64,000 bases of DNA from Streptomyces sp. CBMA29 (GTDB lineage: Bacteria > Actinomycetota > Actinomycetes > Streptomycetales > Streptomycetaceae). This document shows, in pieces, positions 33,081 to 61,403 of the stretch. Position 1 is the stretch's first letter. The number at the start of each line of letters is the position of its first letter. The stretch covers positions 1 to 64,000 of the forward strand of contig NZ_MECL01000150.1 of assembly GCF_014596445.1 (NCBI RefSeq), in the 5' to 3' direction. The notes under the pieces were generated by a model. The model was not told where the DNA came from. It searched no databases and was given only the letters and a program-made list of their open reading frames with translations. The translations under genes and the position numbers were made by a program.

Positions 33081-34481
33081 ATGGCGATATCCGTGTTCGA
33101 CCTCTTCTCCGTGGGCATCGGCCCGAGCAGTTCGCACACTGTCGGCCCGATGCGCGCCGCGGGCATCTTCGTGCACCGGCTGAAGAACGAGGGGCTGCTG
33201 GCGCACACCGCGTCGGTCCGGGCGGAGCTGTTCGGGTCGCTGGGGGCGACGGGCCACGGGCACGGGACGCCGAAGGCGGTGCTGCTGGGTCTTGCGGGGC
33301 ACTCGCCCCGGACGGTGGACGTGGAGACGGCGGACGACGAGGTGGCCGCCGTCCGCGCCTCGGGGCGGCTCAAACTGCTCGGGGCGCACGAGATCGGCTT
33401 CGACGCGGACACCCAGATCGTGCTGCACCGGCGCAGGTCGCTGCCGTACCACGCGAACGGGATGACGTTGTTCGCGTACGACGCGGACGGCGTACCGCTG
33501 CTGGAGAAGACGTATTACTCGGTGGGCGGCGGCTTCGTTGTGGACCGGGACGCCCTCGGCGGGGAAGGCGGGGGCGAGGACCGCATCAAGCTGGACGACA
33601 CGGTGCTGCGGCACCCCTTCCGCACCGGTGACGAGCTGCTGCGGCTCTCGCGTGAGACGGGTCTGTCGATCTCGGCGCTGATGATGGAGAACGAGAAGGC
33701 GTGGCGTACGGAGGAGGAGATACGCGCCGGGCTGCTCGACATCTGGCGGGTGATGGAGTCCTGCGTGGGGCGCGGGATGTCCCGTGAGGGCATCCTGCCG
33801 GGCGGTCTGAAGGTCCGCCGCCGCGCGGCGCAGTCGGCGCGCCAACTGCGCGCGGAGGGCGATCCGGCCGCGCACGCGATGGAGTGGGTCACCCTCTACG
33901 CGATGGCGGTCAACGAGGAGAACGCGGCGGGCGGCCGGGTCGTGACCGCCCCCACCAACGGCGCCGCGGGCATCATCCCGGCCGTCCTCCACTACTACCT
34001 GAACTTCGTCGCGGCGCCGACCGCCGGCGCCGTCGACCGGGAGGACGCCGTCGTCCGCTACCTGCTGGCGGCGGGCGCGATCGGCATGCTCTTCAAGGAG
34101 AACGCCTCCATCTCCGGCGCCGAGGTCGGCTGCCAGGGCGAGGTCGGCTCGGCCTGCTCGATGGCGGCCGGCGGTCTCGCCGAGATCCTCGGCGGCTCCA
34201 CGGAACAGGTCGAGAACGCCGCCGAGATCGGCATGGAACACAACCTCGGCCTGACCTGCGACCCGGTCGGCGGTCTCGTCCAGATCCCCTGCATCGAGCG
34301 CAACGGCATGGCCGCCGTCAAGGCCGTCACCGCCGCCCGCATGGCCATGCGCGGCGACGGCCGCCACCACGTCTCCCTCGACAAGGTCATCAAGACCATG
34401 AAGGAGACCGGCGCCGACATGAAGGTCAAATACAAGGAGACCGCCCGCGGCGGTCTGGCCGTCAACGTCATCGAGTGCTGA
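33081..34481 (+). CDS. sdaA: L-serine ammonia-lyase (iron-sulfur type, single chain)
   Basis: About 466 residues from the ATG at 33081 (AGGAG upstream). It deaminates L-serine to pyruvate using a [4Fe-4S] cluster. The N-terminus [20 protein letters not shown] and the block [15 protein letters not shown] are family hallmarks. The protein ends [19 protein letters not shown]. From known structures of this enzyme class, the C-terminal tail with its final Cys folds back into the active site, so this end is functionally essential. The mobile element is inserted exactly here, yet the reading frame is complete. Upstream in-frame codons from 32967 cross the hairpin and were rejected. Confidence 0.95.
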
Positions 34482-34482
34482 C
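34461..34482 (+). repeat. Left attachment-site core (attL) within sdaA
   Basis: These 22 bases, including the sdaA stop codon, are identical to 61201-61222. The similarity continues without gaps over about 150 bp (34411-34560 against 61151-61300) at roughly 86%. Two further identical runs are 34419-34435 (17 bp, upstream) and 34484-34502 (19 bp, downstream). All mismatches within the coding part are synonymous. Confidence 0.9.
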
Positions 34483-34510
34483 CCGGTAGGCCCTGACCTG
34501 GGACTTCCCG

Positions 34511-34587
34511 TCTTTCAGCTCTGTCGGAGCCTTCCTGGTTTGCACGGCGAAAAGTCCCCGGGAAGTCCCTCCGACAGAGTTGAAAGT
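34511..34587. repeat. Inverted repeat just inside the left end of the element
   Basis: TCTTTCAGCTCTGTCGGAG at 34511-34529 is the reverse complement of 34569-34587 at 17 of 19 positions. It may act as a terminator for sdaA after insertion or as part of the recombination complex. The left arm also appears, less perfectly matched, beside the right attachment site. Confidence 0.65.
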
Positions 34588-34604
34588 CCCTGAAAAGTCC
34601 CTGG
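34582..34604 (+). promoter_or_regulatory. Left arm-type integrase site (double AAGTCCCT box)
   Basis: Two AAGTCCCT boxes 12 bp apart in a 23-base segment, matching 61068-61090 at 22 of 23 positions. It lies 99 bp beyond the core. Two further AAGTCCC boxes occur just to the left (about 34552 and 34563). In the excised circle this site and its partner would flank the core on both sides, as arm sites of tyrosine integrases do. Confidence 0.6.
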
Positions 34605-34689
34605 GATTCCGGGCAGCAGAGGGCCTCCACCAGGGGCTACTCCGCGCTTCATCAGCCGCGGGGGCAGCCGGCGTGGCAGGTCAGCGGCC

Positions 34690-34810
34690 GAGCTTCCTCA
34701 TATCTTGCGACGCCAGACGGGCCGAGGCACGATGACTCGAACCCACGATCGACGGATTAGGCACAGGGATCTTAGCCCCTGGCCTGACTTGCTGCGTTCG
34801 CGAGGGCGCC
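34690..34810 (-). other. Degenerate tRNA-like sequence
   Basis: On the minus strand CAGGG-(8-base loop containing CTAAGAT)-CCCTG resembles an anticodon arm, and GGGTTCGAGTC further on resembles a T-loop. The T-stem does not pair properly, and I cannot close an acceptor stem or D-arm. It may be a decayed tRNA gene carried at the element's left end, or chance. The rest of 34605-34879 shows no gene. Confidence 0.25.
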
Positions 34811-34879
34811 GAGTCGCGAGTCGTGGGAGTCGCTGCGATTTGCATTACTACTGGTGCCCGGAATCTTTACGGTAACGGC

Positions 34880-34899
34880 TGTGATCAATCGATTACACA
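34880..34899. promoter_or_regulatory. Imperfect palindrome upstream of the ABC-3C operon
   Basis: TGTGATCAATCGATTACACA has outer TGTG/CACA arms and a perfect central AATCGATT, slightly asymmetric. It sits in an A/T-rich stretch about 100 bp before the first gene of the operon and could be an operator. No particular regulator is implied. Confidence 0.35.
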
Positions 34900-34995
34900 C
34901 CGCATCAGCCCTGTGGTAGTCCTGGTTTTCTTCCGCCCTTACGGCCGCCCTGGCCGACGCGGGGCCGGTTGAGGGGCAACTGGGCAGGGGGCGCG

Positions 34996-36342
34996 GTGGT
35001 CGACGTGGTAGCCGAGGCGGCAGGGAGCCGGGAGGGGTTCGAGCATCCGATCTTTCGGCTTGCGCCGAAGGAGGACGACGGCTCCAGGACGTCGGGCCTG
35101 TACCGCTACCAGGCGGAGGTCGCGGCGCGGTTTTGCCTGGCGATGCTCACGCAGGAGAGCGTCGACTACATCGTCTGCGAGTGGCACGAGGACTTCGTGA
35201 TCGCCTTCTGCGACGGTGCGGTCGAGCTGGTCTCGGTCAAGCACCGCCAGCACGATCAGGGCCCTTGGACGTTGAGTCAGCTGTTTCAGGACGGGGGTCT
35301 TGCCCACTTGTTCGATCGCTGGGTGGGCTGCGATCGCGCGAGCAACGTGCGCCTGCGTCTGTTCACCAATGCTGCGCTGAAGCCAGCCAGGGACAACGCG
35401 CGTGGCCTTGCCAGGATGTGCGGCCCGCAGCCGGAGCTCACCGAGGGCCGCGACGCGATGGTGAAGAACGTGGCCAGGCAGCTGCTGAAGGTCCGGTGGA
35501 AGCAGCCTTACGACAACATTCCTGATACGCCCCAGGTGAACGTTGCTGACATCGTCTTTCCCGAGGGCTTCCTCGACCAGGTGGGGGGCTTCCTAGCGGT
35601 ACTGGCCATCGACCACGACCAGTCCGCGAATCACTCGATCACGGACACCAACATCCAGCAGTTCCTGCTGCCGGCCATCGCCAGCCTGGAACTGGTCGAC
35701 GTAGACGCCGAGAGCACCTACCGGGATCTGGTCAACCGCATCGAGAAGGCGAACCGGGACGAAAGTGACCGCGGGCAGCTCGCCTCCTACATCGTCGACC
35801 CTGCCCGGGTCCTGAACAACAGGCAGATGTCCGCGCGCATCGCCAGGCGCAGGCTGCGCCGCGTCACCGTCCTGGATGGGTTCGCCTACCTGCGCACCGC
35901 CGTGCCGACGTATGTGCGTGGCCAGGTGCCGATCAAGGCCCCCGGAGGCACGAGGCTGGGGCGCAAGCTTGCCCACGGCCAGGTGCCCTCGGACGAGGCT
36001 GCCCACGCTGAACGGCTGCGCTCGGCCTGGTACGTGACCTGGTCCCAGCAGCGCTCGGGCCTGGTAGGAGATGCCGCGGACCTGGAGAACCTGAGCCTTG
36101 AGGTGACCGACGCCGCTTTCGAGTGCCGTGGAAGAGCAGAGCAGGAAACTGCGCCCGGCTCGGCGTACGGCCGGCGGATGAATCAGCTCCTCATCCAGTA
36201 CCTGACTCCCGAGACGGTGGCGGCAACGCCCCCGTTCAAGGTCAACAAGCAGCATCTGCGTGGCCTGGCTTACCAGCTTGCCGATGAGTGCCACTTCTAC
36301 TTCTCCGAGCCGTTCGACGCCTCCGCCGAGGGCGCCCCGTGA
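34996..36342 (+). CDS. Probable effector nuclease of an ABC-3C-type system (DUF4297/Cap4-like)
   Basis: About 448 residues from the GTG at 34996, which has an AGGGGG ribosome site; a TTG at 34969 is a weaker alternative. Residues 33-90 have the layout of the DUF4297 restriction-like nuclease: GLYRYQAEVAARFCLAML (the helix with RYQ), an acidic strand (CEWHEDFVIAF) and a strand ending ELVSVKHRQ, equivalent to the E-x-K of the active site. The C-terminal 350 residues are helical, with no other motif, and probably contact the partners. GTGA overlap with the next gene implies tight co-translation. Family-level inference: a DNA-cutting effector gated by the ATPase. The assignment rests on motif layout, not on a profile search. 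Confidence 0.72.
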   Translation: MVDVVAEAAGSREGFEHPIFRLAPKEDDGSRTSGLYRYQAEVAARFCLAMLTQESVDYIVCEWHEDFVIAFCDGAVELVSVKHRQHDQGPWTLSQLFQDGGLAHLFDRWVGCDRASNVRLRLFTNAALKPARDNARGLARMCGPQPELTEGRDAMVKNVARQLLKVRWKQPYDNIPDTPQVNVADIVFPEGFLDQVGGFLAVLAIDHDQSANHSITDTNIQQFLLPAIASLELVDVDAESTYRDLVNRIEKANRDESDRGQLASYIVDPARVLNNRQMSARIARRRLRRVTVLDGFAYLRTAVPTYVRGQVPIKAPGGTRLGRKLAHGQVPSDEAAHAERLRSAWYVTWSQQRSGLVGDAADLENLSLEVTDAAFECRGRAEQETAPGSAYGRRMNQLLIQYLTPETVAATPPFKVNKQHLRGLAYQLADECHFYFSEPFDASAEGAP

Positions 36343-36911
36343 CCAACAGTACCGAGCAGGCCGCGGCCGCTAGACGGATCAGGACCGAGGGCCGCCAGGA
36401 GGAACAGCGTGAATCTCACTATCACGAGGCTCGCGTGCTGCTGCTGATCAGCCAGTTCACCACGGCGAAGAAGGGCCTGGACGGCCTGACGAAGCTGGCC
36501 AAGCTCGACTTCCTGCTCCGCTATCCAGCCTTGCTCGAACGGCTCCTCAATGAGCGGAACCTGTCCTGGCCAACGGGTGCGGAGCCTACGAGATTCGAGC
36601 GGATCGCCGTGGAGAGCCGCATGACCCGCTACAAGTACGGCCCCTGGGACCAGCGCTACTACAGCGTCCTTGGCTCTCTTGCCGCCCGTGGGCTGATCAC
36701 CTATGCCGGAGGCGGCCGTGCCGAGTTCCGCGTTACCGCCACGGGGGCGATCGCCGCTGACACCCTCGCCTTAACCGACGAGTGGGCTGTCGTCGCCGAG
36801 CGGATCACCCTGCTGAAGAAGCACTTCAACAAGACCGGGTCAGCCCTTAAGACCCTTATCTACGAACGCCTGCCCGACGCGGTGGACAGGCCCTGGCGGA
36901 CGGAAATCTGA
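36339..36911 (+). CDS. Middle component of an ABC-3C-type system (winged helix)
   Basis: 190 residues from a GTG overlapping the upstream stop. The N-terminal half contains LTKLAKLDFLLRYPALLERL, typical of the small helical middle components of ABC three-component systems. The central segment SRMTRYKYGPWDQRYYSVLGSLAARGLITYAGG matches their winged-helix element (the YxYGPWD-like motif). The role is probably as adaptor between nuclease and ATPase. The stop codon overlaps the ATG of the ATPase gene by one base (TGATG). Confidence 0.72.
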   Translation: MTNSTEQAAAARRIRTEGRQEEQRESHYHEARVLLLISQFTTAKKGLDGLTKLAKLDFLLRYPALLERLLNERNLSWPTGAEPTRFERIAVESRMTRYKYGPWDQRYYSVLGSLAARGLITYAGGGRAEFRVTATGAIAADTLALTDEWAVVAERITLLKKHFNKTGSALKTLIYERLPDAVDRPWRTEI

Positions 36912-38866
36912 TGGCAGTCCACGTCCGCTTCCTCTCCCTGACGGTCACCACCGCTACTGCGGAGAAGACCTACCGGTTCGACCAGCCGGCCACAGTCATC
37001 AGCGGAGCGAGCGGCTCCGGCAAATCCAGCCTGCTCATGCTGCTCAAGCACACCATCGGCGGGTCCGCCCGGCTGACGACCACCGTGCGCGACCACGTCC
37101 ACTCGGTGCGCGCCGACGTCGTCATGGGCAACCAGCACATGATCCTCAAACGGACCATCAGCGACGAGCGCTCCGACCACGTGGACATCCTCGACCCCGA
37201 CACCCTGACGCTGCTCCACAGCCTCGCTGTGCGGTCCGCCAACCGACGCGAGACGCTCTCGGACTACCTCCTGCAGGCCACCGGTTTCCCCCGCGCCTCC
37301 ATCCCGAGCACACGCGACGGGAACGCGCAGTCGCTGGACCTGACGTTCAGCAACCTGTTCGCCTACACCTACATGGAGGCCCACAACATCGACAGGGAGG
37401 TCGTGGGCCACCGCGACACCTGGTTCAACCGCAAGCGCAAAGAGCTGTTCAAGCTCATGTTCGCGCTGACTGATAGCGCCCTCATGGAACTGCGGCTGGC
37501 CAAGAACCTGCTGGACGAGCAGCTGAAGAAAAAGAAGTCCGAGTACGCGAACGTCACTCAGTTCCTGCAAGCCTCCGACTCCCGAAGCGAGGAGGAACTG
37601 CGGACCGAGCTCACCAGCCTGCGCGACATGCTCGGCCGGGCCGAGAGCACCCTGTCCTCCCTCCGGTTCGAGCTGGAGGACAATGCGGCAGCGGACACCG
37701 TCCTGCGCCAGGATCTGGGACGGGCGGTCGACGCGACCCGCGACGCCGCCCAGGAAGTCCTCGGCGCCCGCGACCTGGTCGAAGCACGAGCCGCCGTCGT
37801 CGCCCAGGTGACCCTGGACCTCGCCCGCCTGGAACGGTCCTCCACCGCCATCGACCTGCTCTCCCCCTTCGACTTCGTCATCTGCCCGCGCTGCATGCAG
37901 CGCCTGGAGAACAGGCCCGTCCCCGCCGACTACTGCGTCGTGTGCCTGCAGCCTGATCCGCGCGACGCCGACGTCGACCCCGTCGTCGTACAACAGACCC
38001 GCACAGCGCTGGAGGAACAACTTCAGGATGCCCGTGCAGTCCAGGACGCCGACGTTCAGGTTCTGCAACGTGCACAAGAGGCCGCCGAGCAGGCGGACTT
38101 CCGTGCCACCACCCTGCGCCGCCAGCTCGATGCGCTGACCCGGGACACGGTCGCACCCCGCTTCGAGGCGATCGCGCAGTCCAGCGCCCGAGTGGCCACG
38201 CTCAAAGCGACCATCGACGCAGTGGCACAGCTACGCGACTTCTGGACCCGCGCCCGCTCGATCAACCAGTCCGTCCGCGACATCACCGCCGAACGCAAGG
38301 AGCTCACCGCGGCGATCAAGGCCCGTACCGCAGACCTCCAGAGCCGACAGACCCTGGTCGCGGAACTCAGCACATCCTTCCGCACGATCCTCGAGGACTT
38401 TCAACCGCCGTGGGAGGTGGAGTCAGCGGTCGTGGACCCCGACTCGTACCTGCCGGTCGTTAACGACACGCAGTTCGAGAACCTCCAGGCGTCCGGCGGC
38501 GGCATCAGCGCCTGCGTCAACCTTGCCTACAGCCTGGCGCTCCTCGAGTTTGGCCTGACCCACCCTGACGTGCTGGTGCCCTCCCTCCTGATCATCGACT
38601 CCCCCCGAAGAGTGTTCGGCAACAACCCCGAAGACCAGGAAACTAGCCGCCGAATTTACGACCGCTTCAAAGATCTGGCTTACACCTATGGTGAAGCCCT
38701 GCAATTGATCGTCGCCGACAACGACACAGCACCCGTTCCCAGCGACACCTTCGGCGAGATCGAACTCGACTACATCAGCCCATTGGTCCCCGGCGTCGTC
38801 CATCCCGGCCCCGGCCACACAGCCCGCATCGAAGACGAGACTGTCGAAGGTAACGCATCCTCCTGA
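36911..38866 (+). CDS. Rad50/SMC-like ABC ATPase of an ABC-3C-type system
   Basis: 651 residues. Walker A is GASGSGKS at 32-39. A long coiled-coil region is interrupted by a zinc-hook-like pair, CPRC (about 325-328) and CVVC (about 342-345). The ABC signature-like ASGGGISACVNLAYSLALLE lies near 527, and Walker B LLIIDSPRRVFG near 558. This is the standard order of a Rad50-type ATPase with a short coiled coil. In ABC-3C systems it is thought to sense DNA or nucleoprotein and license the effector. The third and last gene of the operon; it is followed by about 860 bp without a clear gene. Confidence 0.82.
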   Translation: MAVHVRFLSLTVTTATAEKTYRFDQPATVISGASGSGKSSLLMLLKHTIGGSARLTTTVRDHVHSVRADVVMGNQHMILKRTISDERSDHVDILDPDTLTLLHSLAVRSANRRETLSDYLLQATGFPRASIPSTRDGNAQSLDLTFSNLFAYTYMEAHNIDREVVGHRDTWFNRKRKELFKLMFALTDSALMELRLAKNLLDEQLKKKKSEYANVTQFLQASDSRSEEELRTELTSLRDMLGRAESTLSSLRFELEDNAAADTVLRQDLGRAVDATRDAAQEVLGARDLVEARAAVVAQVTLDLARLERSSTAIDLLSPFDFVICPRCMQRLENRPVPADYCVVCLQPDPRDADVDPVVVQQTRTALEEQLQDARAVQDADVQVLQRAQEAAEQADFRATTLRRQLDALTRDTVAPRFEAIAQSSARVATLKATIDAVAQLRDFWTRARSINQSVRDITAERKELTAAIKARTADLQSRQTLVAELSTSFRTILEDFQPPWEVESAVVDPDSYLPVVNDTQFENLQASGGGISACVNLAYSLALLEFGLTHPDVLVPSLLIIDSPRRVFGNNPEDQETSRRIYDRFKDLAYTYGEALQLIVADNDTAPVPSDTFGEIELDYISPLVPGVVHPGPGHTARIEDETVEGNASS

Positions 38867-39727
38867 CCACACCGTCCTCCATAAGCGCATCCGCGGCTTG
38901 TCCAGTGCGGCGCTCCTCCGGGCAGTGTCGTGGGCGCACGACCACCAGCCCCGCGCCCCACCGAGTGCTCACCGCCGTTCTGGACAGCCATCACCTGTCT
39001 CCAAGTACGCGGCCGATCCTCCCCCAAGCGCCCATGACCGGGAGGACTGAAGTGCCGGCGCAGGCCCTCACGGCCGGAGGCGCTAAAACGGCACCACGCG
39101 AGTCAATCCGCCAGGGTGCCGGCAGAGATGGGCCATTGGGCCGGCGAACCGCGAAGGTTACCGCCGCGGCCGGCGATTACGGCCTCCGGGTTGAGCTCGC
39201 GCACACCGACGCAGCCGCCCGTTCAACAGCGCGATCGTCACTAGGTGCCGAGTCAGGCGCGAGATCTGTCGAGACCGGACAGCCCCGACCTCGCCGGACG
39301 GTCACGGCGCGGTGATAGCCATTGGCCTGTCGACCGAAGATCAATGACAGAACCTGACTAGGTGTCACGCACGCTGGTCCACCGGGGCTTTCACTACGTG
39401 CGCCCGACCTATCCCGCTAGACAAGGGAAAGCTCAGTTCAAAGGCCCGGGACATCCATATGATTACGGAAATCAAACCTGCGATCCGATGCCGTGTTCTG
39501 CCACCCCGTCCAAGAGCGTCCGCGCTCGCCTTGCGCTCTCCGTGCCCGTGCTGCACCCCCGTGTCCCGCAACGTTCAGGGGCAGAGCTGCCGCCTCGTGG
39601 CATCTCCCAAGACCAATGGCTTCCGCCGTCCGGGTGAATACCTCGCCGTGGACGTCACACGACAACGAGGGACCAGCCACTTGTAGCACTTGCACAGCTA
39701 TTTCTCAGGAGCGCGAGCCTGGCCCTT
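38867..39727. other. Gene-poor stretch between two defence loci
   Basis: About 860 bp. Open frames exist in several phases, but none has codon bias, a ribosome site and a plausible product together. Local composition around 39400-39490 is A/T-richer than average. It may hold remnants of a lost gene and the transcription end of the ABC-3C operon. Confidence 0.5.
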
Positions 39728-40930
39728 CTAGCCTTGTCCCTGACGCGGGAAGGGCTCCCCGATCGGCCACGGGTTTGTGAGGCCGAACCACTCCGCCTGC
39801 GTGTGCTCAGGATCAACGAAATGCATTGCGCCGTGGGCGTCGACGGTCGATCGACGCCACATCGGTAGCGAGGGCACGGGCCACTCAGGGTCGGGGTGCT
39901 CCCAGATGGTGTGCTGCTGCGTGGCCACGAAGGCGGGGTGCAGTTGCTTGACCACGACCACTGCCGACACGTGACGGTGGTCCGAGCGATCACCCTTGTA
40001 CCAGTAGCCATCGGGATTGCGGATGACAGCCCCCAAGTGGGTCTCGGCGCCAGGTCGAGTGTCGATGAGCAGGCTCTCCGTGCCGTACAGCGCGTTCCTC
40101 ACGTCGTAGTCATCGGTGGTGAAGCTGCTCAACGCCACCGCAACGATGTACGGAGCACTGAGCGGCCCGTATGCGGAACCCTTGTCACTCAGGGCCTTCT
40201 TGATCCCCTCCTCGCCTTGCACCACGAAGGCTCGTCCGCCGCCGAGGATCCCAAGTGGTCTCACGCCCTCCTTTCCGCGCGCCTCGGGCGACCTCGGAAG
40301 CGCGTGGAACTGAATTCGCCACCCGTCCGCCTCATAGGGCATTCCTGGAAAGTCGCGGCGGCCGTTCCCCTGGTTCCTGTAGGCGTCCGGATCCAGCTCT
40401 GCTAGCCATTTTCCCAGTCTGGAGCGCAACGGGCGGGCTGGGAGCGGGCCACCTCCCTGCATTTCTACGTCGATCGACAGGACGAAGTTCGGGCTGCTGA
40501 TCTTGTCGAGCGAGTCGTACAGAGTGTTGACCCTCGCTGCTGCGCGCCCCGAGACGTCACTGAACGACGCTGATCGAGCTTCAACGTAGACCGCCGTGCC
40601 GTCCTTCTCCGCAAGGAAGTCCGGGCGGCGGCTAGTCCCGTCAACTTCCGGGTGACAGGTCACGGCGTAGCCCATCCGGAGAAGACACTCGTGCAGGTAC
40701 AACTCGAAGAAAGCCCCTTTGGACTGCCGGTCGTCAGTGGAGCGCAGCCGTCCCATGACGTCCGGCCGAGCATCCGGGCACAGCCGGGAGAACCAGTCCT
40801 CGATCACGTTGCGGACTTGTTCCCAGTAGGAGCCTGCCACGCGGTCGATGAACTGGGAGTGGCTCTCCTCGTACTTGGCCGGGGACGGGTCGGTTCGCTC
40901 GATCGGCGAGAAGATGTTCACGCCGATCAT
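39728..40930 (-). CDS. Stand-alone PD-(D/E)XK-like nuclease protein
   Basis: About 400 residues from the ATG at 40930; a GTG directly before it is also possible. The central segment GAFFELYLHECLLRMGYAVT, then RRPDFLAEKDGTAVYVEARS (about 70-125), has the E...PDF...VEA layout of restriction-endonuclease-like folds; the catalytic Lys position is replaced (VEARSAS in place of VExK). C-terminal residues from about 325 recur in a duplicated fragment at 48773-49026. It is minus strand, between the ABC-3C operon and the Gabija-like pair. A defence role is inferred from context; the exact family is not recognised. Confidence 0.6.
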   Translation of the reverse strand: MIGVNIFSPIERTDPSPAKYEESHSQFIDRVAGSYWEQVRNVIEDWFSRLCPDARPDVMGRLRSTDDRQSKGAFFELYLHECLLRMGYAVTCHPEVDGTSRRPDFLAEKDGTAVYVEARSASFSDVSGRAAARVNTLYDSLDKISSPNFVLSIDVEMQGGGPLPARPLRSRLGKWLAELDPDAYRNQGNGRRDFPGMPYEADGWRIQFHALPRSPEARGKEGVRPLGILGGGRAFVVQGEEGIKKALSDKGSAYGPLSAPYIVAVALSSFTTDDYDVRNALYGTESLLIDTRPGAETHLGAVIRNPDGYWYKGDRSDHRHVSAVVVVKQLHPAFVATQQHTIWEHPDPEWPVPSLPMWRRSTVDAHGAMHFVDPEHTQAEWFGLTNPWPIGEPFPRQGQG

Positions 40931-41063
40931 CACACCCGGTCCACCGGTCCGGGGCAAGACACCCTGTCGCCCTCCAAGGGACCTCCGCTCCGCCGAGTCT
41001 TGGGTCCGCACTTCGAACCCGCGGCGGTGCGCGGTGGAGATGAGCTGTGCGAGTGCCGCGCCA

Positions 41064-41120
<57 letters not shown>

Positions 41121-41254
41121 AAGGGTGTACAGGGGTTGTCCGGGCAACCCGGGTTCCGGGGTCGTGGCGCCGGTGGCCGCTTAGACGACGCCGGTGAGCC
41201 GACTGCTTCCGAAGGGCTTGCGGGCCCAATGGCCTCGTAAACGGCATGCGGCGG

Positions 41255-51340: not shown

Positions 51341-51420
51341 GGCGGTGTTCTCCTGTGGTTAAAAGAAGTCGGAACGGTGACGCTCGCTGGATGGGTGACC
51401 GGCCGTGCTATCCGGCCCGG

Positions 51421-51876: not shown

Positions 51877-52020
51877 CGTTCCCTCTCACCGACCGGCTGA
51901 CCGGCGCCGACCTGACCGGCCCGGGGTGACCGCTGACCGAACTGATCATCCCGAGTGACCGGATTCGCCCGGAGTGGTCGGACTGACCGTGACCGTGGTG
52001 GTCAGGTCGGTCGGCGCGGT
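51640..52020. repeat. Cluster of GACCGG / GGTCA(C/G) short repeats
   Basis: TGACCGG-type heptamers in both orientations recur more than fifteen times in about 380 bp. They cover the linker of the preceding gene and run on into the non-coding upstream region, so coding need alone does not explain them. They resemble iteron or TraB-recognition (clt) clusters of actinomycete plasmids, but no matching Rep or TraB is present. The non-coding part 51877-52228 holds nothing else that I can support. Confidence 0.5.
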
Positions 52021-52228
52021 TGTCGGAGCCCCCGCAGACTGCCTGGTTCTGCCAGGTCCGTCCCCCAGCGACCGGTGGTGGGCGGGGGGTTCGTCGTGCT
52101 GGGCATGCGGGGTGTGCTCCGATCGCTCTCTCCGTGCGCTGGTGGTGCGTCGGCGGAGTGGTCTGGCTGGGAAGTCGACGGGGTGGCGCGCTCGGGGGCG
52201 GACCCGTGCGGAGCGGCTTGCCCTGGGG

Positions 52229-52933: not shown

Positions 52934-53962
52934 CACAGCTCCTCGGCGTAGGCGGTGGAGGCGTCGACCGGGTTGGTCCATGCCCTGTGAGCGGGCACGT
53001 TAGACCCGAATCCCGGACGGCCCAAACCAGCCCCCGATCCACCGGGGGCGTTCATGGCGTCGTTGACAAGGCTCGGCAGCCGCGACGGGTGGCCCTGGAC
53101 CTCGGCGTACCGCCGCAGCCCGGCCCGGACGTGCTCCGGGGTGATGCCCTCGTCCAGCAGCTTCCTGGTGATCCGTCCCAAGTGCCCGATCACGTCCTCG
53201 GGGGGCCGCCGGTCGCACGAGGCGACGTACTCGCCGATCAGCTGGTTCGCCGAGACGCTGCCCGCGCCGGGCGCATCGCGCCCCGTAGGGAAGAAAGATC
53301 CAGGATCCAAGATCCTAGATCCAGGGGCCGAGCCCTCGGAGAGTATTCGGGGAGCCTTCGGCGAAGGTTCGGCGAGTGCCTCCTGACCTGCGGTTTTGCC
53401 AACGCCCTCCTGGGGCGTGGCTGCGGCGGTGTCGCGGGTGTCCAAGGCCGGGGCCGAGGTGGCCCCGGTGGGTGCAGGAGGGGTCGGCACAGGACGTGGG
53501 GGCGTTTCGAGGGCTCGGGGAGGGTTCGGCGAGTCCTCCCCGAACCCTCCGGGAGCCTTCGGTGAAGGGTCGGGGTGCTGGGTGCAGGGGCCCGTGCAGG
53601 GGCCGCACCGGTGGTCGGGGTGGTGGCCGGTGCAGACCGATCCGGGACTGGCTCGGCTTGTCGATCTTCTGGTGCTCGAACCACCCGACGATGTGCAGGT
53701 ACCGCTTGCCGTCGCACCCGGTGTAGCGGCAGATCAGTCCGGCAAGCGCCAGCTGGATGAGGTCCTCCTCGACGTGCACGGCGGTGTGTTCGGCGCGCTG
53801 CGGCCAGATCACGCCCCCGATGATCGCCGCGTTGTCCCGGTGCCGCCCCCAGTCGTCGACCTGCGGGAGCAGCCCGATGAAGGTCAGCAGCGCGGTCACC
53901 GAGACCTCGTTGCACCGGTCGTTGATGAACAGCTCCGGCTTGATCGTGCGGATCCTCGGCAT
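52933..53962 (-). pseudogene. Replication initiator-like protein with a frameshift
   Basis: The 5' part (ATG at 53962) encodes MPRIRTIKPELFINDRCNEV...WFEHQKIDKPSQSRI, a winged-helix start typical of actinophage and plasmid replication proteins. After about residue 108 the sense passes to another frame (SVCTGHHPDHRCGPC..., then a Pro/Ser linker) and continues into SANQLIGEYVASCDRRPPED...YAEEL, ending at the DnaC-like start. The break is near 53635-53655. Either a real frameshift mutation or two overlapping genes; the single-gene view fits the usual family length. A cluster of GATCC/GGATC repeats lies in the linker. Confidence 0.6.
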
Positions 53963-54556
53963 CTCAGCGGCCCCGCCCTGCCGCGACCAGGCCGCTGCGG
54001 ATGAGGGTGGCGGTGGTGGCCAGGTCGACGGCGCGCGGGCACGCCGCACCGGAAACCATGTCGGCGAGGCGGCGTGGGCGATCGACATCCGGGCAGGCCG
54101 GACTTCCGCTCGGCATGGCGGGCATGTGCTACTCCGTTGCTTGTAGAAGCGCGGTGCGGCGGTTCTCGTACAGAGACGGCATGCCGCCCGCTAGATATGA
54201 ATCGGCGCCCTTCGGGCTGCCCGCCCGGCGCCCACGACTTGGTACCTCTCGGGCGCCGGTCGACTTTCCGACGGCTGTTCCGCGCCCCTGCCTCATCGGA
54301 TCGACGGCGATTCCCCCTTCCCTGCCGTGCATTCGGACGAGCGCGGACCAGCAACGTAGGCGGGGAAGCCGCTATCCATCCAGCGAATGAAGCCCCTTCG
54401 CCCGCCTCGACGCCAAAACGACATCCCCCTTTCGCGGTGAGGCTTTCTCGCAAAGTGATTTCGTGTGATGACTCGGCAAGGGATTCCACGAGCTGCGATG
54501 AGTCCTGCGGCGTCCGGCAGTCGTAGGGTCGGACCCGTTACCGAGGAGGACTTCTG
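53963..54556. other. Region between replication and DHFR-like genes
   Basis: About 590 bp with no supported gene. The last part holds the ribosome site GAGGAGGAC of the next gene. Composition is lower in G+C around 54170-54480. Possibly the lost promoter region of the rep-like operon. Confidence 0.4.
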
Positions 54557-55121
54557 ATGCGCAGCGTGACCTGTTCGATGAGCGTTTCGCTGGACGGCTA
54601 CATCGTCGGGCCGGACGGCGGCTTCGACTGGGCGCCGCCCGACGAGGAGGTCTTCCGCTTCGCCACCGATGAGGTGCGGGAGGCCGACGTCCATCTGCTG
54701 GGGCGGCGGCTGTACGAGTCGATGCTGTACTGGGAGACCGCAGGTCAGGACCCCGCGCTCGGTTTCTCGACGGGCGAGTTCGCCGCGATCTGGAGGGCGC
54801 TGCCCAAGGTGGTGTTCTCCACCACCCTGTCGGCGGTACAGGGCCATGCCCGGCTCGCTTCCGGCGGCTTGGTGGAGGAGATCGAGCGGTTGCAGGCCGA
54901 ACCGGGGGACGGCAACATCGCGATCGGAGGCGCGAATCTCGCTGCCGAGGCCGCCGACTCGGGCCTGATCGACGAGTACCGGGTCAGGGTTCTACCCGGT
55001 ACTGGTCGGCGACGGCGTTCCATTCTTCCCTCAGCACGAGCGCCGGATGCATCTCGAACTCGTCGAGACCCGCACCTTTGGCTCGGGAGTCGTCTATCTC
55101 CGCCACCGTGTGGCGCGTTAG
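54557..55121 (+). pseudogene. Dihydrofolate reductase-family protein with a one-base insertion
   Basis: Starts MRSVTCSMSVSLDGYIVGPD with a GAGGAGGAC ribosome site. RibD-C/DHFR features: ADVHLLGRRLYESMLYWETA, KVVFSTTLS and NIAIGGANLAAEA (cofactor loop). After DEYRVR an extra G in the GGG run at 54987-54989 shifts the frame. Removing it restores FYPVLVGDGVPFFPQHERR and then HLELVETRTFGSGVVYLRHR to a TAG at 55119-55121. As sequenced the protein would read on to 55150 with a nonsense tail. Confidence 0.8.
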
Positions 55122-55522
55122 CTGGCTCGTCCGCCGTGCCCTGGGCATGATCTGCCCGAAGCGGTGATGGTGCGCTCCCCCGGCACGCCGGTGGTATCGC
55201 CGAGGGGCCTGTGTGGCCGAACGTGGTGGTCTGATGCTCGCGTACGGTCGCCAGTTGCACGCTGTGCTCGGTGAGGGCGCGGCTGGTGCGGAACGCTGCT
55301 GCCTCCAGGTCCCGCAGCCGTCAGCCGTACGCCATGGTCTCGTCCGGCGTGCCGTTCTCGTGCCAGCCGGCCATCACTGCCCCCCACGTTCGCGGAACTA
55401 CGCGCATGCGCGAACAGACCCACCATGGGTCGGTGCGGGGGGCAGTTGTCTTCCCGGTGGTGACGTCCGCCATCGCGTCCGGGCAGGGATGTGCCCACGT
55501 CGGCGGTCGGCGGGTCGGGGCG
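55122..55522. other. Gene-free stretch
   Basis: About 400 bp with only shadow frames. Nothing supported. Confidence 0.4.
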
Positions 55523-55795
55523 TCAGCGTGAGCGGACTCCTCGACATCGATATGACGGCGTCGCGCGCTTGCAATCCAATGCGACGATCGGGCAGTTCAG
55601 CGCCTCGGCAATCTTGATCAGGCTGGCTGGGGTGGCGCTGCGCCAACCGGACTCGATCTCGCCCATCAACTGCTCGCCTATGCCGACGAGATCAGCAAGT
55701 GCCCGCTTGGTCGGCTCGGATTTCTCCCGTGCCCAGGTGACCGCCTCGGGCTCTTGGTGCAGCCTGCTCGGCCGGGTGCGCTGACGTGCGGACAT
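55523..55795 (-). CDS. Small XRE-family helix-turn-helix regulator
   Basis: 90 residues. HTH core: TKRALADLVGIGEQLMGEIESGWRSATPASLIKIAEALNC (about 29-68), matching the Cro/XRE pattern. Ribosome site AGGGGAA precedes the ATG. The C-terminus is short and basic. It likely controls element genes, perhaps the xis/int or maintenance functions; the target is unknown. Confidence 0.75.
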   Translation of the reverse strand: MSARQRTRPSRLHQEPEAVTWAREKSEPTKRALADLVGIGEQLMGEIESGWRSATPASLIKIAEALNCPIVALDCKRATPSYRCRGVRSR

Positions 55796-55910
55796 CCCCG
55801 GTTCCCCTCGAAGTGATCGTTGTTGGCCGACAAGGTGTTGCGGAGAGGCATGACAGGACGGACCGGAATCGGTGGCCCGCCCCGCCGACAGTGCAGAACG
55901 TGGTCAGGAG

Positions 55911-56435
55911 TCAGTCCGGTTGGCGCGTGGCCCAGTCTTGGCGGGCGGCAATGAGCGCGGGCAGGACCTCGTCGTGGAGACGATCGGCCTGGGCGCGTAA
56001 CTTCAATGCGATCTCCGCGAGTTCCTGCGGGTCCAGGCCCAGAATTCGGCACTCCGGACTGACTTGGATGTTCACCACCGGCACGCGCAGGCGGGGGTCC
56101 ACGTCGTACGGGTTGCAGTCGATGCTTCCCTCGAAGACCGCGTCCTCCTCGGCCTCGTCTCTGCTGTCCGTGGTGGTGAGGGGCATCATCGCGCCCTCGA
56201 AGAAGTTCCGGTGATTGATGCTGGCCAGCCGTGCCGACAGCAGGTCCAACGGCACGCCGACCTCCGTCGGATCGTCCTCGGCCCACTCGGGCAGATAGCC
56301 GGACACCGCGAGCACGGCCGTGGTAGTGATCGTCCACGAACCCGGCGTGCTCCACGGCTTCGGATGCTCCAGCGGGCCCGCAGGCTGCGGCGGCTGGGGT
56401 ACGTGCTGCTCGTTGATCTCGATCTCCTTCTCCAT
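55911..56435 (-). CDS. Hypothetical protein (DUF6907-like)
   Basis: 174 residues. An acidic/proline N-terminus is followed by TITTTAVLAVSGYLPEWAED, a central cysteine-containing region and a C-terminal helix LDPQELAEIALKLRAQADRLHDEV, a layout typical of small proteins found on Streptomyces integrative elements. The family name is a tentative match from memory. Confidence 0.55.
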   Translation of the reverse strand: MEKEIEINEQHVPQPPQPAGPLEHPKPWSTPGSWTITTTAVLAVSGYLPEWAEDDPTEVGVPLDLLSARLASINHRNFFEGAMMPLTTTDSRDEAEEDAVFEGSIDCNPYDVDPRLRVPVVNIQVSPECRILGLDPQELAEIALKLRAQADRLHDEVLPALIAARQDWATRQPD

Positions 56436-56513
56436 GGGAAAACAGGCGTGCTGCTGCTGTCGCGGCCGACCGCCCCTGGAGCGGCCACCCGCGGTGACTC
56501 TTCTCGAACCTCT

Positions 56514-56993
56514 TCAACTCGGTTGCCCCGCCTGGGGGATCTTGAGGACGCACCAGGTGCACGTTCCGTCGGGGCTGACACCCCACTCGTCCGCCACAGC
56601 GGAAACCAGGAGCATGCCGCGCCCGCTCTCCTCGTCCGGCCCCGCCTCACGGACCCGCGGCCGGCCAGGCGATCCGTCGTCCACCTCGATCACAAACGCG
56701 TCGGCGGCGAGGACGAGTTTGAAGGCGATCGCGTCGTCCGCTCCGTACCGCAGAGCGTTGGTGACCAGCTCGCTGATCAGCAACTCGGCGCTCTCGACGA
56801 GCCCGGGATATCCCCAACGAGCCACCACGGCAGCCCCGATGCGGCGGAGACGTCCGACCCACAGTGCGTCGTCCTCCGACACCGTGTCGCCGTCGCGGTT
56901 GGGTCCACGCTCGATACGGAGGGCCAATTCGTCGAGTACGGGCTCAGCGTATGCCGGGCTCTGCGCGAGACGTTCCGGGGAGTGGGCGGTCAT
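56514..56993 (-). CDS. Anti-sigma-factor-like histidine-kinase-type ATPase (HATPase_c)
   Basis: 159 residues from the ATG at 56993; a longer start near 57150 is possible. GHKL motifs: ELLISELVTNALRYGADDAI (N-box), VIEVDDGSPGRPRV (G1) and GRGMLLVSAVADEWG (G2). Such single-domain proteins are common in Streptomyces, often beside XRE regulators and DUF397 partners, and probably act in regulation. Divergent from the next gene. Confidence 0.85.
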   Translation of the reverse strand: MTAHSPERLAQSPAYAEPVLDELALRIERGPNRDGDTVSEDDALWVGRLRRIGAAVVARWGYPGLVESAELLISELVTNALRYGADDAIAFKLVLAADAFVIEVDDGSPGRPRVREAGPDEESGRGMLLVSAVADEWGVSPDGTCTWCVLKIPQAGQPS

Positions 56994-57283
56994 TGAGGGC
57001 TCGCTCCCCGGGTACCCCTGTCGGGCCAGTTGGCAGGAGGGGTGCGGCCGACCTGTCCGTTGTGAGGGCGTGCTGCCGGGGCGAAAAGGGGCAGTCTCTT
57101 CTTCACGCACATCTGATCCTCCTTCCGGCTTGCCGGGAGTGACGCTCATGCTCTTCCCTCCCGGGACCGTGGTGTTGGCGAGTACGTTGAGTGTTCCGCC
57201 GATCACAGAGCCACGGAATGAGGTCAAGGCCCGTGAGCTGGTGAAGGTGGTGAAAGATCGCTCCGGCACGGGAGGACGCGAAG

Positions 57284-58675
57284 ATGGCGCGTAGCCGTAA
57301 TGAGAAGTTGGCGCAGGTCATCGCCCAGGCAGGGTGGTCGCACGCGCAGGTGGCGGCGGCCGTCGTGCGCGTCGCCACGGAGAACGGCATCAGCGCGTGC
57401 ACGGCCGTCGGACGGTCGCATGTGACCTACTGGGTGGGAGGGACGGTGCCCTCCGGCGACGCGCCGTTAGTGTTGCGCGAAGCGCTGTCCCGTCGCCTCG
57501 GCCGTCATCTCACGCTGGACGAGATCGGTCTCGCGGACTTGTCCGTGACGGCGGTCGGTGCTCTGGACTGGCGTAGTGATGCCTTGGTGACCTTGACGGA
57601 ATTGGGGAGGGTGGAAGTGGACGAGGAGCGGCGTCGCCTGCTCAGCCGGTCGGCGTATTCGTTGGCGGCCCTGGCACTTCCGTCGCCGTCGCAGCCGGAG
57701 CCCGCCGCGCGAAGGGTTACACCTGCCGGCGGCAGTCGCGCGCTCACCGTGGGAGCCGCGGAGGTGGAGGCCGTACGCGACATGGTGCGGTTCTTCTCGC
57801 AGATAGACCAGAAGCGGGGCGGTGGCCACGGACGTACCGCCGTGGTGGCGTACCTGCGGAACGAGGCGCTGGGCTACCTCAACGGATCGTTCACCGACGA
57901 CCACGTTCGCCGGGCGATGTTCTCCGCCGCCGGGGAACTGGTCTATCTCGCCGCGTGGATGGCGTTCGACAACGACGAACACGCTGTGGCACAGCCGTAC
58001 TTCACTACGGCCGTGAAGCTCGCCGTCGAGGCCGGGGACGCTCCGCTCGCCGGCCACGTCCTGCGGGCGATGGCACATCAGGCCCTCGAACTCGGACACG
58101 GCCCGGAAGCTGCGCGTATCGCGTCCGCCTCCGTGGAGGGCGACCGCTACCGGCTCGCCTCCCCCCGCGAACGGGCACTTCTCGGAGTCGTTCACGCTCG
58201 GGCCCTTGCACACATTGGCGACCAACGCGGCTCCGCCGCAGCCCTGCTGCGCGCCGAAGACGACCTTGCATCCGCCGGCCCTGATCGCGAGGAGCCGGGG
58301 CGAACGTTCTTCTTCGGCGAGGCCAGCCTCGCCCACGAGACGGCCCGCACGCTCCAGGCATCCGGCGATACGGGTGGAGCTCTGCGGGAGTTCCGCCGCA
58401 GCGTCCGCACCCGCAACGCCGCGACCTTCTCCCGGACCCATGCGGTGACGCTCGGCTATCTGGGCTCCATCCAGGCCACGACCGGCCGGGTGGAGGAGGC
58501 ATGCGTGACCTGGAATCGCGCGCTCGACGCCATGGCGGGCATAACCTCCGGCCGAACCCGCCAGACGGTGGTGGACATGCGACGTGCGCTGTCGCCCTTT
58601 CGGCGGCGCGGTATCGACGCGGTGGCCGAACTCAACATGCGGGCGGCCCAGTTCATGGGGCACCCGGTAGCCTGA
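57284..58675 (+). CDS. HTH-TPR transcriptional regulator-like protein
   Basis: 463 residues with a GGGAGGACG ribosome site. The first 70 residues form an HTH-like domain (KLAQVIAQAGWSHAQVAAAV ... HVTYWVGGTVPSGDAPLVL). From about 150 onwards are TPR-like helices (VYLAAWMAFDNDEHAVAQPY in form, GDAPLAGHVLRAMAHQALEL). Streptomyces have many proteins of this type of unknown target; it may control the neighbouring element genes. Confidence 0.78.
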   Translation: MARSRNEKLAQVIAQAGWSHAQVAAAVVRVATENGISACTAVGRSHVTYWVGGTVPSGDAPLVLREALSRRLGRHLTLDEIGLADLSVTAVGALDWRSDALVTLTELGRVEVDEERRRLLSRSAYSLAALALPSPSQPEPAARRVTPAGGSRALTVGAAEVEAVRDMVRFFSQIDQKRGGGHGRTAVVAYLRNEALGYLNGSFTDDHVRRAMFSAAGELVYLAAWMAFDNDEHAVAQPYFTTAVKLAVEAGDAPLAGHVLRAMAHQALELGHGPEAARIASASVEGDRYRLASPRERALLGVVHARALAHIGDQRGSAAALLRAEDDLASAGPDREEPGRTFFFGEASLAHETARTLQASGDTGGALREFRRSVRTRNAATFSRTHAVTLGYLGSIQATTGRVEEACVTWNRALDAMAGITSGRTRQTVVDMRRALSPFRRRGIDAVAELNMRAAQFMGHPVA

Positions 58676-58721
58676 CAGCCTTGGCACACTGCCCGGCCAC
58701 AACGCCGGGAAAGGGGAAACG

Positions 58722-59201
58722 GTGAGCGAATCGTACGAGGTCACAGCGCTGGCCCACGTCGTCGGCGGGCGCAAGGAACCCACGGACGACTACTGGGGCG
58801 GCACCCGATCCATCATCCGGATCGATCCCTCCTTCCCTGCCGATTCCACCGCCGGACTCGCCGACTTCAGCCACTTGGAGATCGTCTTCCGCTTCCACCT
58901 GACCGACCCCACCGACCTCCACCCCGGCGCCCGCCGCCCTCGCGACAACCCCGGCTGGCCCCCGGTCGGCACCTTCGGCCATCGCAACATGCGCCGCCGC
59001 AACTGGCTCGGCGTCTCCCGCTGCCGCCTCCTGCGCGTCGACGGACTCGACCTCCACGTCGAAGACCTCGACGCCGTCGACGGCACCCCGGTCCTGGACA
59101 TCAAGCCGTGGTTTGCCACCATGGGCCCGCGCGGCGAGATCCATGAGCCCGAGTGGCCCAGTGTCATGCTCGCCGACTACTTCGCCCCGAACCGGGACTG
59201 A
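58722..59201 (+). CDS. TsaA/TrmO-like protein (putative tRNA methyltransferase O family)
   Basis: 159 residues. The TrmO fold motifs are present: SHLEIVFRFH near residue 45, PPVGTFGHRNMRRRNWLGVS and DGTPVLDIKPWF. TrmO N6-methylates t6A37 of tRNA(Thr) in E. coli; here the NRPNPIG-like motif is changed to RRRNWLGVS, so activity is uncertain. Located within the element just before xis, possibly passenger cargo. Confidence 0.78.
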   Translation: MSESYEVTALAHVVGGRKEPTDDYWGGTRSIIRIDPSFPADSTAGLADFSHLEIVFRFHLTDPTDLHPGARRPRDNPGWPPVGTFGHRNMRRRNWLGVSRCRLLRVDGLDLHVEDLDAVDGTPVLDIKPWFATMGPRGEIHEPEWPSVMLADYFAPNRD

Positions 59202-59385
59202 AGCAGCAACGCAAGCAATAGCACGAGCCAGGGCCGCTCGTGCCTGCTGCGGCAGGGCAGCCGATATCGCCAGTAGCCCTCAGCCCGATGAGGGCCAAAT
59301 ATCACGGATGCGCGGCACGTCCAAGCCCGAACCTTTCCCCCACTCTTGCGGCGAGCTGAATCCCGCCCGCAGGAGGAACCCCACC

Positions 59386-59646
59386 ATGGACAGCAGCACC
59401 ACGCACCGGCCCGAACCCGCGTTTCTCACCCTGCCGCGTGCCGCGGCCTACCTCGGCATCTCCCCCAACACCCTCTATGTATGGCGGCATCGCCGCCAGG
59501 GGCCGCCGAGCTTCCGCATGGGGCGACGCGTCATGTACAGGGTCTCCGCACTCGACGAGTGGGTGGATCAGCAGGAGAAAGCCGACTCTCGGTCCAACCC
59601 GACCTTGAATCCGCTGAACCGGAAACCTCAGCGACGCACACCGTGA
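59386..59646 (+). CDS. xis: Excisionase (MerR-like HTH, Xis)
   Basis: 86 residues from the ATG at 59386 with an AGGAGG ribosome site. FLTLPRAAAYLGISPNTLYV...RQGPPSFRMGRRVMYRVSALDEW is the standard actinomycete excisionase winged helix. It lies 135 bp upstream of int in the same direction and should direct excision by bending attL/attR. The longer in-frame extension from 59113 overlaps the TrmO-like gene and was rejected. Confidence 0.9.
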   Translation: MDSSTTHRPEPAFLTLPRAAAYLGISPNTLYVWRHRRQGPPSFRMGRRVMYRVSALDEWVDQQEKADSRSNPTLNPLNRKPQRRTP

Positions 59647-59781
59647 TGCCTTCGACTTCACAGAGCAACGACACCCAACCGACACCATATTCGCAGCCCA
59701 CAGCGGGATCCGACCTGCCTCGAAGAAGCGTTCCCAACACCGTCTTGATCGGAACGGAACATTCAAGCAGGCAGGAGAGTA

Positions 59782-61221
59782 GTGGTGGCGGGTTACGTAG
59801 AAGACCGATGGCTCAGGAAGCGGCCGGACAAGGCAACCGGCAAGCGTGAGCGCACCTCTTTGTGGGGGAAGGGAAAACGCTATCGGGTCAAAGCCATACC
59901 CGGGGTCCAGGACCGGTCCTTCGACTCCAGCGAGGACGCAAAGAAGTGGCTCGCCGTGGCCCAGGCGGACAGTTCGCGGCAGGAGTTCGTCGACCCGAGG
60001 AACGGCGACATCCTACTCGCCGACTACATCGAGGACTGCTGGTGGCCCAGCCGGACCGACGAGCCCTCGACCGCGGCGCCCATGCGCAGTCGCATCCGGA
60101 ACCACATCATTCCGCTCCTCGGCTCGTACCCCCTGCGTGGGATCGACGCCTCAGCTCTCCGCAGGTTCAAGGCGGGTCTGCTCGCACGTGTCGAGGAGTC
60201 GACCGCCGAGGTCATCTGGATCCACCTGACCACCATCCTCAACGCCGCGGTCGACGACAGGCGCCTGGCCAAGAGCCCGGTGGCTGCCAACCGCAGCGTG
60301 AAGCGGCCGAAGCCCGCCAAGAAGAAGGCGCAGGCGTGGCCCCGGGCGACCGCTGACGCCGTGCGGGCCGGTCTGCAGGAGCGATATCAGCTCGCCGTGG
60401 ACCTCGGGCTCGGCCTCGGACTTCGTCAGGGGGAGGCGTTCGGCCTCAGTGAAGAGGACTTCGACTTCCGGGCCATGGTCGTACACGTCCGGCGGCAGCT
60501 CCGTTGGGACGCGAGGGGCCGACCGTATTTCTGCCTTCCCAAGGGCCGCAAGACCCGCGATGTGCCACTCTCCCCCAACCTCGCACGAAGGGCGCGCCTC
60601 CACCTCCGGCGCTTCCCTCCGGTCGCGTGCACCCTGCCGTGGCGGAACCCCGAGGAGCCGACGACCGACCTCGAAGAGCGCCAGCGCAAACCGGTCACGG
60701 TGCGGCTCGTGCTCAGCTCTTCGCACGGCCTTCGGATCAGCTACAAGACGTGGAACGAGCGCAGTTGGAAGCCGGCGCTCGCGACCGCCGGTGTGCTCCG
60801 CGAGGTAGGCCGGAAGGTGGAGCAGCACGGCGCGCGCACCCGTCGTCATCCCGTCTTCGAACGCTCGCGGCGCGACATGTTCCACGTCCTGCGGCACACC
60901 TACGCCAGCGTGCAGCTGGAGGCGGGCGAGTCCATCGTCAGCGTGTCGGCCTGGCTGGGACACTCCTCACCGAACATCACGCTCGCCCACTACGCCCACT
61001 TCATGCCCGGCGCGGGTCGGCGGGGTCTGGCCGTGATGGACGCCTGGCTGGCGAGCGACCGGCAGCGGAAAGTCCCTGAGAAGTCCCTGGCGCCCTCGTG
61101 GCTTACCCCGGAGTCGCTGAAACCGCAGGTCAAAGCCACCGCATCGAGTGCCGCCGATATGAAGGTCAAATACAAAGAAACCGCGCGGGGCGGCCTCGCG
61201 GTCAACGTCATCGAGTGCTGA
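59782..61221 (+). CDS. int: Tyrosine integrase whose C-terminus copies that of SdaA
   Basis: 479 residues. SAM-like N-domain, then a catalytic domain with Arg in LGLRQGEAFG (about 215), HVLRHTYAS (His368, Arg371), WLGHSS (about 392-397) and the likely nucleophile in ITLAHYAHF (Tyr about 404). GTG start at 59782 (or 59785) with CAGGAGAG. The last residues, [19 protein letters not shown], are identical to the C-terminus of SdaA with different codons, so the gene crosses the attachment site. A double AAGTCCCT arm-type site lies inside the coding region at 61068-61090. Confidence 0.95.
   Translation: MVAGYVEDRWLRKRPDKATGKRERTSLWGKGKRYRVKAIPGVQDRSFDSSEDAKKWLAVAQADSSRQEFVDPRNGDILLADYIEDCWWPSRTDEPSTAAPMRSRIRNHIIPLLGSYPLRGIDASALRRFKAGLLARVEESTAEVIWIHLTTILNAAVDDRRLAKSPVAANRSVKRPKPAKKKAQAWPRATADAVRAGLQERYQLAVDLGLGLGLRQGEAFGLSEEDFDFRAMVVHVRRQLRWDARGRPYFCLPKGRKTRDVPLSPNLARRARLHLRRFPPVACTLPWRNPEEPTTDLEERQRKPVTVRLVLSSSHGLRISYKTWNERSWKPALATAGVLREVGRKVEQHGARTRRHPVFERSRRDMFHVLRHTYASVQLEAGESIVSVSAWLGHSSPNITLAHYAHFMPGAGRRGLAVMDAWLASDRQRKVPEKSLAPSWLTPESLKPQVKATASSAADMKVKYKETARGGLAVNVIEC
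61068..61090 (+). promoter_or_regulatory. Right arm-type integrase site within int
   Basis: Almost identical (22 of 23) to 34582-34604, with two AAGTCCCT boxes 12 bp apart. It is 110 bp before the right core. In the circular form this and the left site would flank the core nearly symmetrically. Confidence 0.6.
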
Positions 61222-61222
61222 C
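61201..61222 (+). repeat. Right attachment-site core (attR) at the end of int
   Basis: Identical to 34461-34482, including the stop codon that ends int. Chromosomal sequence resumes after it; the next 70 bp still resembles the left copy at lower identity. Confidence 0.9.
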
Positions 61223-61403
61223 GCGGTAGGCCCTGACCTGGGGTTTCCCGTCTTTCCGCGCTGTCGGAGCCTTCCGTGCTTGTACGGCGGAAAGTCTCTG
61301 TAAGGGCGACCGATTTCTGAAGTGTACGACGGCCGCGAGGGTACCTAGCATTGTCCTCTGCGCCGCGTGCGCGAGGCGATGTCGATCCGGAGTGGGGTTA
61401 TCG

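Follow-up and report, generated by a model that had tools for sequence, protein, structure and literature searches.

An integrative element at the 3' end of sdaA in Streptomyces sp. CBMA29 whose integrase probably ends in the displaced tail of its target gene

Why would an L-serine dehydratase and an unrelated integrase end in the same peptide? The question is raised by a stretch of 64,000 nucleotides from Streptomyces sp. CBMA29 (contig NZ_MECL01000150.1, positions 1 to 64,000), referred to here as the window. On its + strand, sdaA (33081..34481) encodes an iron-sulfur L-serine dehydratase, identified by Pfam SDH_alpha and SDH_beta and by NCBIfam TIGR00720, and aligned with PDB 4rqo through the last residue. 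The int gene (59782..61221, +) encodes a tyrosine recombinase (Pfam Phage_integrase, phrog_1). Both products have the same 22 C-terminal residues. Most probably, a mobile element of 26.7 kb (element 1) has inserted by means of its tyrosine integrase at the 3' end of sdaA, which would hold the bacterial attachment site (attB), giving the gene a replacement tail and leaving the displaced tail as the end of int.

The two copies of the repeat lie at 34413-34478 in sdaA and 61153-61218 in int, are each followed directly by TGA, and align without gaps at an offset of exactly 26,740. With the stop codon, the attL-side copy occupies 34412..34481 and the attR-side copy 61152..61221, both on the + strand. 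Eight of the 22 codons differ (sdaA/int: GAC/GAT, AAG/AAA, GAG/GAA, GCC/GCG, CGC/CGG, GGT/GGC, CTG/CTC and GCC/GCG), each time synonymously and at the third position. Since synonymous sites make up 23% of the repeat, eight synonymous differences out of eight have a probability of about 7e-6 at equal per-site rates. Sequence comparison confirmed the tails, their eight differences and the offset, all of which had been reported in a first-pass annotation of this DNA. Its premise, a C-terminal Cys tail that reaches into the active site of L-serine dehydratases, is also backed: as far as the available text of PMC12647591 goes, the C-terminal Cys of the Legionella enzyme is a ligand of the fourth iron. 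Both reading frames are intact in the occupied state, and int forms an unbroken ORF of 479 codons. For its start, 59785 is a possible alternative to 59782: four homologs begin with MAGY, and a length of 478 aa is common among the best 120 of 339 homologs.

Similarity extends about 75 bp beyond the stop codon (34412-34556 against 61152-61296; 145 bp, 87.6%, blastn), because left arms of related elements come after both stop codons. The left arm of element 1 (34482..34606, +) has AAGTCCC-type repeats and is the same arm as that found 3' of sdaA in other genomes. It contains AAGTCCCTG exactly at 34584-34592 and 34595-34603, and with one mismatch at 34552-34560 and 34563-34571. Two further exact copies, revealed by a motif scan, lie inside int (61070..61089, +), where they encode part of KVPEKSL. 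The window thus has four exact copies, in two pairs of 11-bp spacing, one pair per element end. Judged by their position, these pairs are probably arm-type sites. The first-pass annotation had regarded the DNA after 61222 as the chromosomal sequence to be expected behind an empty sdaA. Arm comparison, blastn and collinearity with a relative assign it instead to the left arm of another element at the sdaA site, the second element (61222..61296, +).

That relative, G003, is the closest compared (SdaA 95%) and has an empty site. Starting within about 30 bp of the end of its sdaA, it is collinear (83-89%) with the contig of the window from 73621, so that, relative to this empty site, about 39 kb separate the end of sdaA from 73621. 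The insert would consist of element 1 and a second-element remnant of 12 kb that reaches to about 73.6 kb. No SdaA tail was seen near the right end of this remnant, and pattern scans of the contig found none besides those at the two ends of element 1. Across the genus, many sdaA genes run straight into the common left arm with its AAGTCCC repeats, and others into unrelated DNA. A protein-level synteny search between the far flank and empty sites gave one remote match and no informative match beyond the locus itself, and the far flank of G030, compared as DNA with 35 genomes, gave scattered accessory matches only. The presumed second-element remnant encodes two CHAT-domain proteins (contig 61392-65165 and 66943-70578; 1393-5166 and 6944-10579 in the coordinates of locus L087), one of them with NACHT and TPR.

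The arrangement is not confined to the window. Protein homologs of Int numbered 339 at E<=1e-60, and among the best 120 of these, 60 have the SdaA tail as their end, allowing for one substitution at most. A search for such integrases had been proposed with the first-pass annotation. At the genome level, int matches occur in 28 of 35 genomes of the genus at E<=1e-20, four of them extending to residue 479; 45 were found in 394 genomes of the family at E<=1e-110, and 14 in the genus to which G064 belongs (392 genomes) at E<=1e-165. A phage collection gave 52 records and a plasmid collection 6, none reaching 60% identity. Positions of sdaA and int were compared in 16 genomes that have an sdaA-type int. 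In 12, the tail shares contig and strand with sdaA and is 3.6-137 kb 3' of it; in one of these, G445, the tail belongs to a truncated int copy, and an additional copy with a frameshifted tail lies 3.8 Mb away. In three others (G009, G011 and G416), sdaA and int are on separate contigs. The integrase would be specific for the sdaA site. In G064, G654, G447 and G058, sdaA and the int tail are 109-137 kb apart, and G058 has another tail at 20 kb; such spans are possibly arrays of several elements.

An integrase tree, which comprises 105 sequences with the tail region removed, was built by a quick method and is weak at 32 of 102 inner branches. Tail-bearing integrases spread across a deep clade, within which proteins ending in VPEKSL, the hbd-like type, are nested. 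The labels of the 59 labelled rows require 14 changes, against a mean of 34.5 after shuffling, and none of 500 shuffles was as low. Ten tailless relatives of at least 55% identity were compared. Six of these carry, 100-120 bp from the position of residue 425, C-terminal codons of hbd with a TACAAGGAG core (TTCAAGGAG in one), and four have no recognisable core. The corresponding distance for the sdaA-type core is 111-123 bp. The hbd gene encodes 3-hydroxybutyryl-CoA dehydrogenase, as judged by PDB matches (6hrd). A gene-length ORF and a fragment of it are both present in all six hbd-type genomes, in three of them on one contig and strand. These sister integrases terminate before the SdaA tail while sharing its core.

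A third target is seen in G210, presumed to be Kitasatospora on the strength of a tail common to L228 and P0102, a named Kitasatospora protein. Its integrase is 49% identical to that of the window and lies at another small host gene, for which Pfam gave no match. Homologs of this host gene in five genomes end in QPKD, SPKE, PVKE, TPKE and PTED. The occupied host gene of G210 ends in VSNGTVGEASSGH, as does one int, and another int ends in the host-like APKE. These tails appear to be an amino-acid label for a tail swap, with the order of the copies masked by a run of N. For more distant integrases, tRNA targets had been guessed from the sequence; this idea was dropped, as a tRNA was present in none of the six loci checked. 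Two distant relatives (L013 and L036) terminate next to the 3' end of an oppositely read gene of the EPSP-synthase/MurA type. The fragment tested matches Pfam EPSP_synthase, and we take the gene to be of the MurA type.

How could one peptide come to serve both proteins? The element is proposed to integrate at the 3' end of sdaA by strand exchange near AARTACAAG. On the circular form, the element's attachment site (attP) would carry, right of the exchange point, a working version of the last 13-16 sdaA codons with the stop codon, followed by the left arm. Upon integration, SdaA would receive this tail, and the resident tail would be displaced to the far end, where it would terminate int because the int ORF passes the arm sites and the core in frame without an earlier stop. 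Each tail would thus alternate between the end of SdaA and the end of Int, with purifying selection on SdaA holding the peptide and third positions free to drift. Right of the exchange point, the tail on int of an integrated copy should therefore be a displaced earlier tail rather than the fixed mimic assumed in the first-pass annotation. In the window genome, sdaA would bear the incoming tail and int the former resident one. After the latter comes the arm of an older sdaA-site element, from which that tail therefore probably came.

The exchange maps best to one place, the Lys-Tyr-Lys codons AARTACAAG. The putative crossover core AAATACAA, deduced from tailless-relative, codon and motif comparisons, lies at 34428..34435 in the left copy and 61168..61175 in the right copy (both +). 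For 14 of the 16 sdaA/int pairs, third positions could be aligned; they agree in 13, 14 and 13 of the 14 pairs at AAR-TAC-AAR and in 12 at the following codon, and agreement collapses past the stop codon. This evidence is modest because TAC is strongly preferred and the first two positions of each codon are under constraint by SdaA. Stronger evidence for the proposed exchange point comes from the hbd sister group with the same core. It had been suggested that either of two crossover points within the repeat leaves SdaA functional. The restoration of the SdaA C-terminus in the occupied state holds, and a single place near AARTACAAG fits better than two alternatives.

Which of the two proteins conserves the peptide? 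Right of the core, the ratio of nonsynonymous to synonymous differences per site (pN/pS) is 0.094 for copies joined to int (n=15) and 0.189 for unjoined copies (n=9); it is 0.074 for occupied sdaA (n=25) and 0.016 for empty sdaA (n=75). Selection on SdaA rather than on Int, as the first-pass annotation had it, is the better reason for the conservation, because copies unjoined to int are conserved too, if less tightly. The alternative, that the integrase itself needs the peptide, its functional C-terminal piece equalling the target tail by chance, is unlikely. It would account for the linker before the tail, whose int frame is open in 15 of 15 integrases, against 1 of 15 and 0 of 15 for the other two frames; neutral truncation predicts about 26 stops over 737 parsimony changes in 58 proteins (some shorter ones may be truncated sdaA types). 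A linker stop is present in L243. Joined tails are also somewhat more conserved than unjoined ones. However, the argument from openness is weakened by the choice of open sequences, by alignment error and by stops that the arm motif itself adds in another frame. Moreover, tail copies outside any integrase are conserved, relatives at the hbd site that are 72-80% identical lack the tail, and int tails are frameshifted or shortened in L197, L089, P0039 and P0061.

The linker itself seems to be relaxed rather than neutral. Over all pairs of 11 integrases, pN/pS is 0.32 in the catalytic part and 0.90 in the linker. A neutral linker was considered on this ground and dropped because of the close pairs, which show some constraint: in six of them, pN is 0.058-0.187 and pS 0.173-0.356 in the linker, against 0.024-0.034 and 0.139-0.204 in the catalytic part (pairs with L192, whose catalytic values are apparently misaligned, excluded).

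If tails alternate by site-specific exchange, codons should record it. In S. radiopugnans (L106), sdaA has CTC followed by the arm, and the far tail has CTG; the far-tail codon, unlike that on the sdaA side, matches the empty sister L098, and the far flank looks sister-like by eye. Two of three informative differences between the tails of A. paucisporea favour a swap. Stop codons other than TGA (TAG or TAA) end 5 of 25 occupied sdaA genes versus 1 of 75 empty ones (P=0.0035); these come from 123 pattern-sorted sdaA loci, of which 5 trace and 18 ambiguous ones, all with TGA, were omitted. Altogether, the codon evidence for a tail swap is modest. Homogenisation of the tails through gene conversion or homologous recombination, whether from one copy to the other or by exchange with an sdaA from another host, would explain the tails of G009, identical from ATG through the stop codon, and the two changes that the ends of G019 share and its empty sister lacks. 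Nevertheless, it is quite improbable: 8 of 22 codons distinguish the copies of the window, several other pairs differ likewise, and the repeat is short for homologous recombination. Chance likeness of unrelated gene ends or a contig misjoin, conceivable in a draft genome of 277 contigs, is hardly credible given that the arrangement recurs, also in the single-contig genome G030, and that half of the best 120 of 339 homologs end in the tail.

Several points weigh against integration with tail exchange as proposed here. The int of G292 sits 605 kb from sdaA, which is unexplained. Third positions agree in 9-13 of the 14 pairs further right of the core and in 12-13 just left of it. The unjoined tails are conserved about half as strictly as the joined ones (pN 0.053 vs 0.030), and the nine copies are mixed, some being far ends of elements with another or an unseen integrase; in L072, L073 and L079, a left arm is next in turn, and L221 is an apparent sdaA fragment. 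One of the three differences in A. paucisporea contradicts a swap. In eight close pairs of an occupied and an empty site, divergence is not raised right of the core (16/408 vs 34/960), flank divergence being 445/640. The two changes shared by the ends of G019, whose integrase type is not joined to the tail, lie left of the core, where a simple swap does not predict them. Excision as a circle is a presumed step of the cycle. As a separate observation, G292 (L171, L221, L249 and L250) has more SdaA-tail matches, at 1.244 and 7.887 Mb.

Two findings had been named beforehand as jointly speaking against the first-pass model: the absence of an SdaA-like tail from relatives located elsewhere, and the absence of an empty site with the sequence that follows 61222. 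As worded, both are found: all six relatives at the other gene lack the SdaA tail, and the nearest empty site lacks that sequence. Both facts fit the corrected model and are therefore not counted as a refutation.

Besides int, element 1 encodes a helix-turn-helix protein, the probable excisionase (59113..59646, +; Pfam HTH_17, phrog_66 excisionase). Among 10 proteins submitted to PHROGs, a subset of the ORFs, only these two matched, and 8 were without match. Pfam recognised no Rep, TraB-type protein, relaxase or type IV secretion system in a partial selection of 23 ORFs of the element. Three genes next to the left end (34969-38866; PADLOC) match LmuA, LmuC and LmuB of Lamassu-type defence. Cargo genes encode a RibD_C protein (54557-55150), an NsdA-family regulator (57284-58675) and a TrmO_N protein (58722-59201).

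Protein-coding attachment sites are less rare than the first-pass annotation held. In e14, a prophage of Escherichia coli that integrates at icd, attP carries a replacement gene end (available text of PMC6379469 and PMC10111431). So far as these accounts reach, the likeness comprises insertion in the 3' part of a protein-coding gene, a replacement end, a functional target and a displaced fragment at the other end. The window element differs in its target, sdaA, and in that the displaced fragment is in frame with int and ends it; we know of no junction between the e14 int and the icd fragment. In one Streptomyces population, 14 of 51 sites of integrative and conjugative elements (ICEs) or actinomycete ICEs (AICEs) lie in protein-coding genes, and element accretion occurs; sdaA is not among the targets named in the available part of PMC9513070. 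Streptomyces-type hosts, an integrase at the element end, protein-coding targets and several elements per site are shared with these elements as described there, but the 23 ORFs scanned here gave no recognisable Rep or TraB-type protein. Archaeal suicidal integrases have the attachment site inside int (PMC8371274, as far as available). Their int is, in that account, split on integration, whereas the int of the window is intact and its last residues are unchanged. In phage Mx8, attP also lies within int. Islands at tRNA and tmRNA genes are bounded by a target that has been restored and a fragment that has been displaced (PMC4383910, available text); the window element differs from these, as described, in its protein-coding target and in that restoration applies to the amino acids, with drift at synonymous positions.

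Rescuing a target gene is therefore already known, and the in-frame sharing of its tail with int looks like a new twist. Literature searches by title and abstract start found no integrase ending in the peptide of its target and nothing related on an attP in the same reading frame; nor did they find a paper that connects integrative elements or prophages with either serine dehydratase or 3-hydroxybutyryl-CoA dehydrogenase.

The proposed exchange accounts for the occurrence of an enzyme's C-terminal peptide on an unrelated integrase, and the locus would preserve a readable natural trace of how tails are exchanged where an attachment site lies in a protein-coding gene. As one integrase family is found at several targets (sdaA, hbd and the gene of a small Kitasatospora protein), target switching may be traceable codon by codon. 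A tentative and rather doubtful extension is that the family is locked to the frame of its target, having no stop codon of its own and a rapidly evolving read-through linker into the target peptide that selection keeps open. If so, a new target would make int gain a stop, as in the hbd types, or adopt the tail of the host gene, as in the Kitasatospora type, and Int and its target would share a translated C-terminus that perhaps tunes Int or competes with the SdaA tail.

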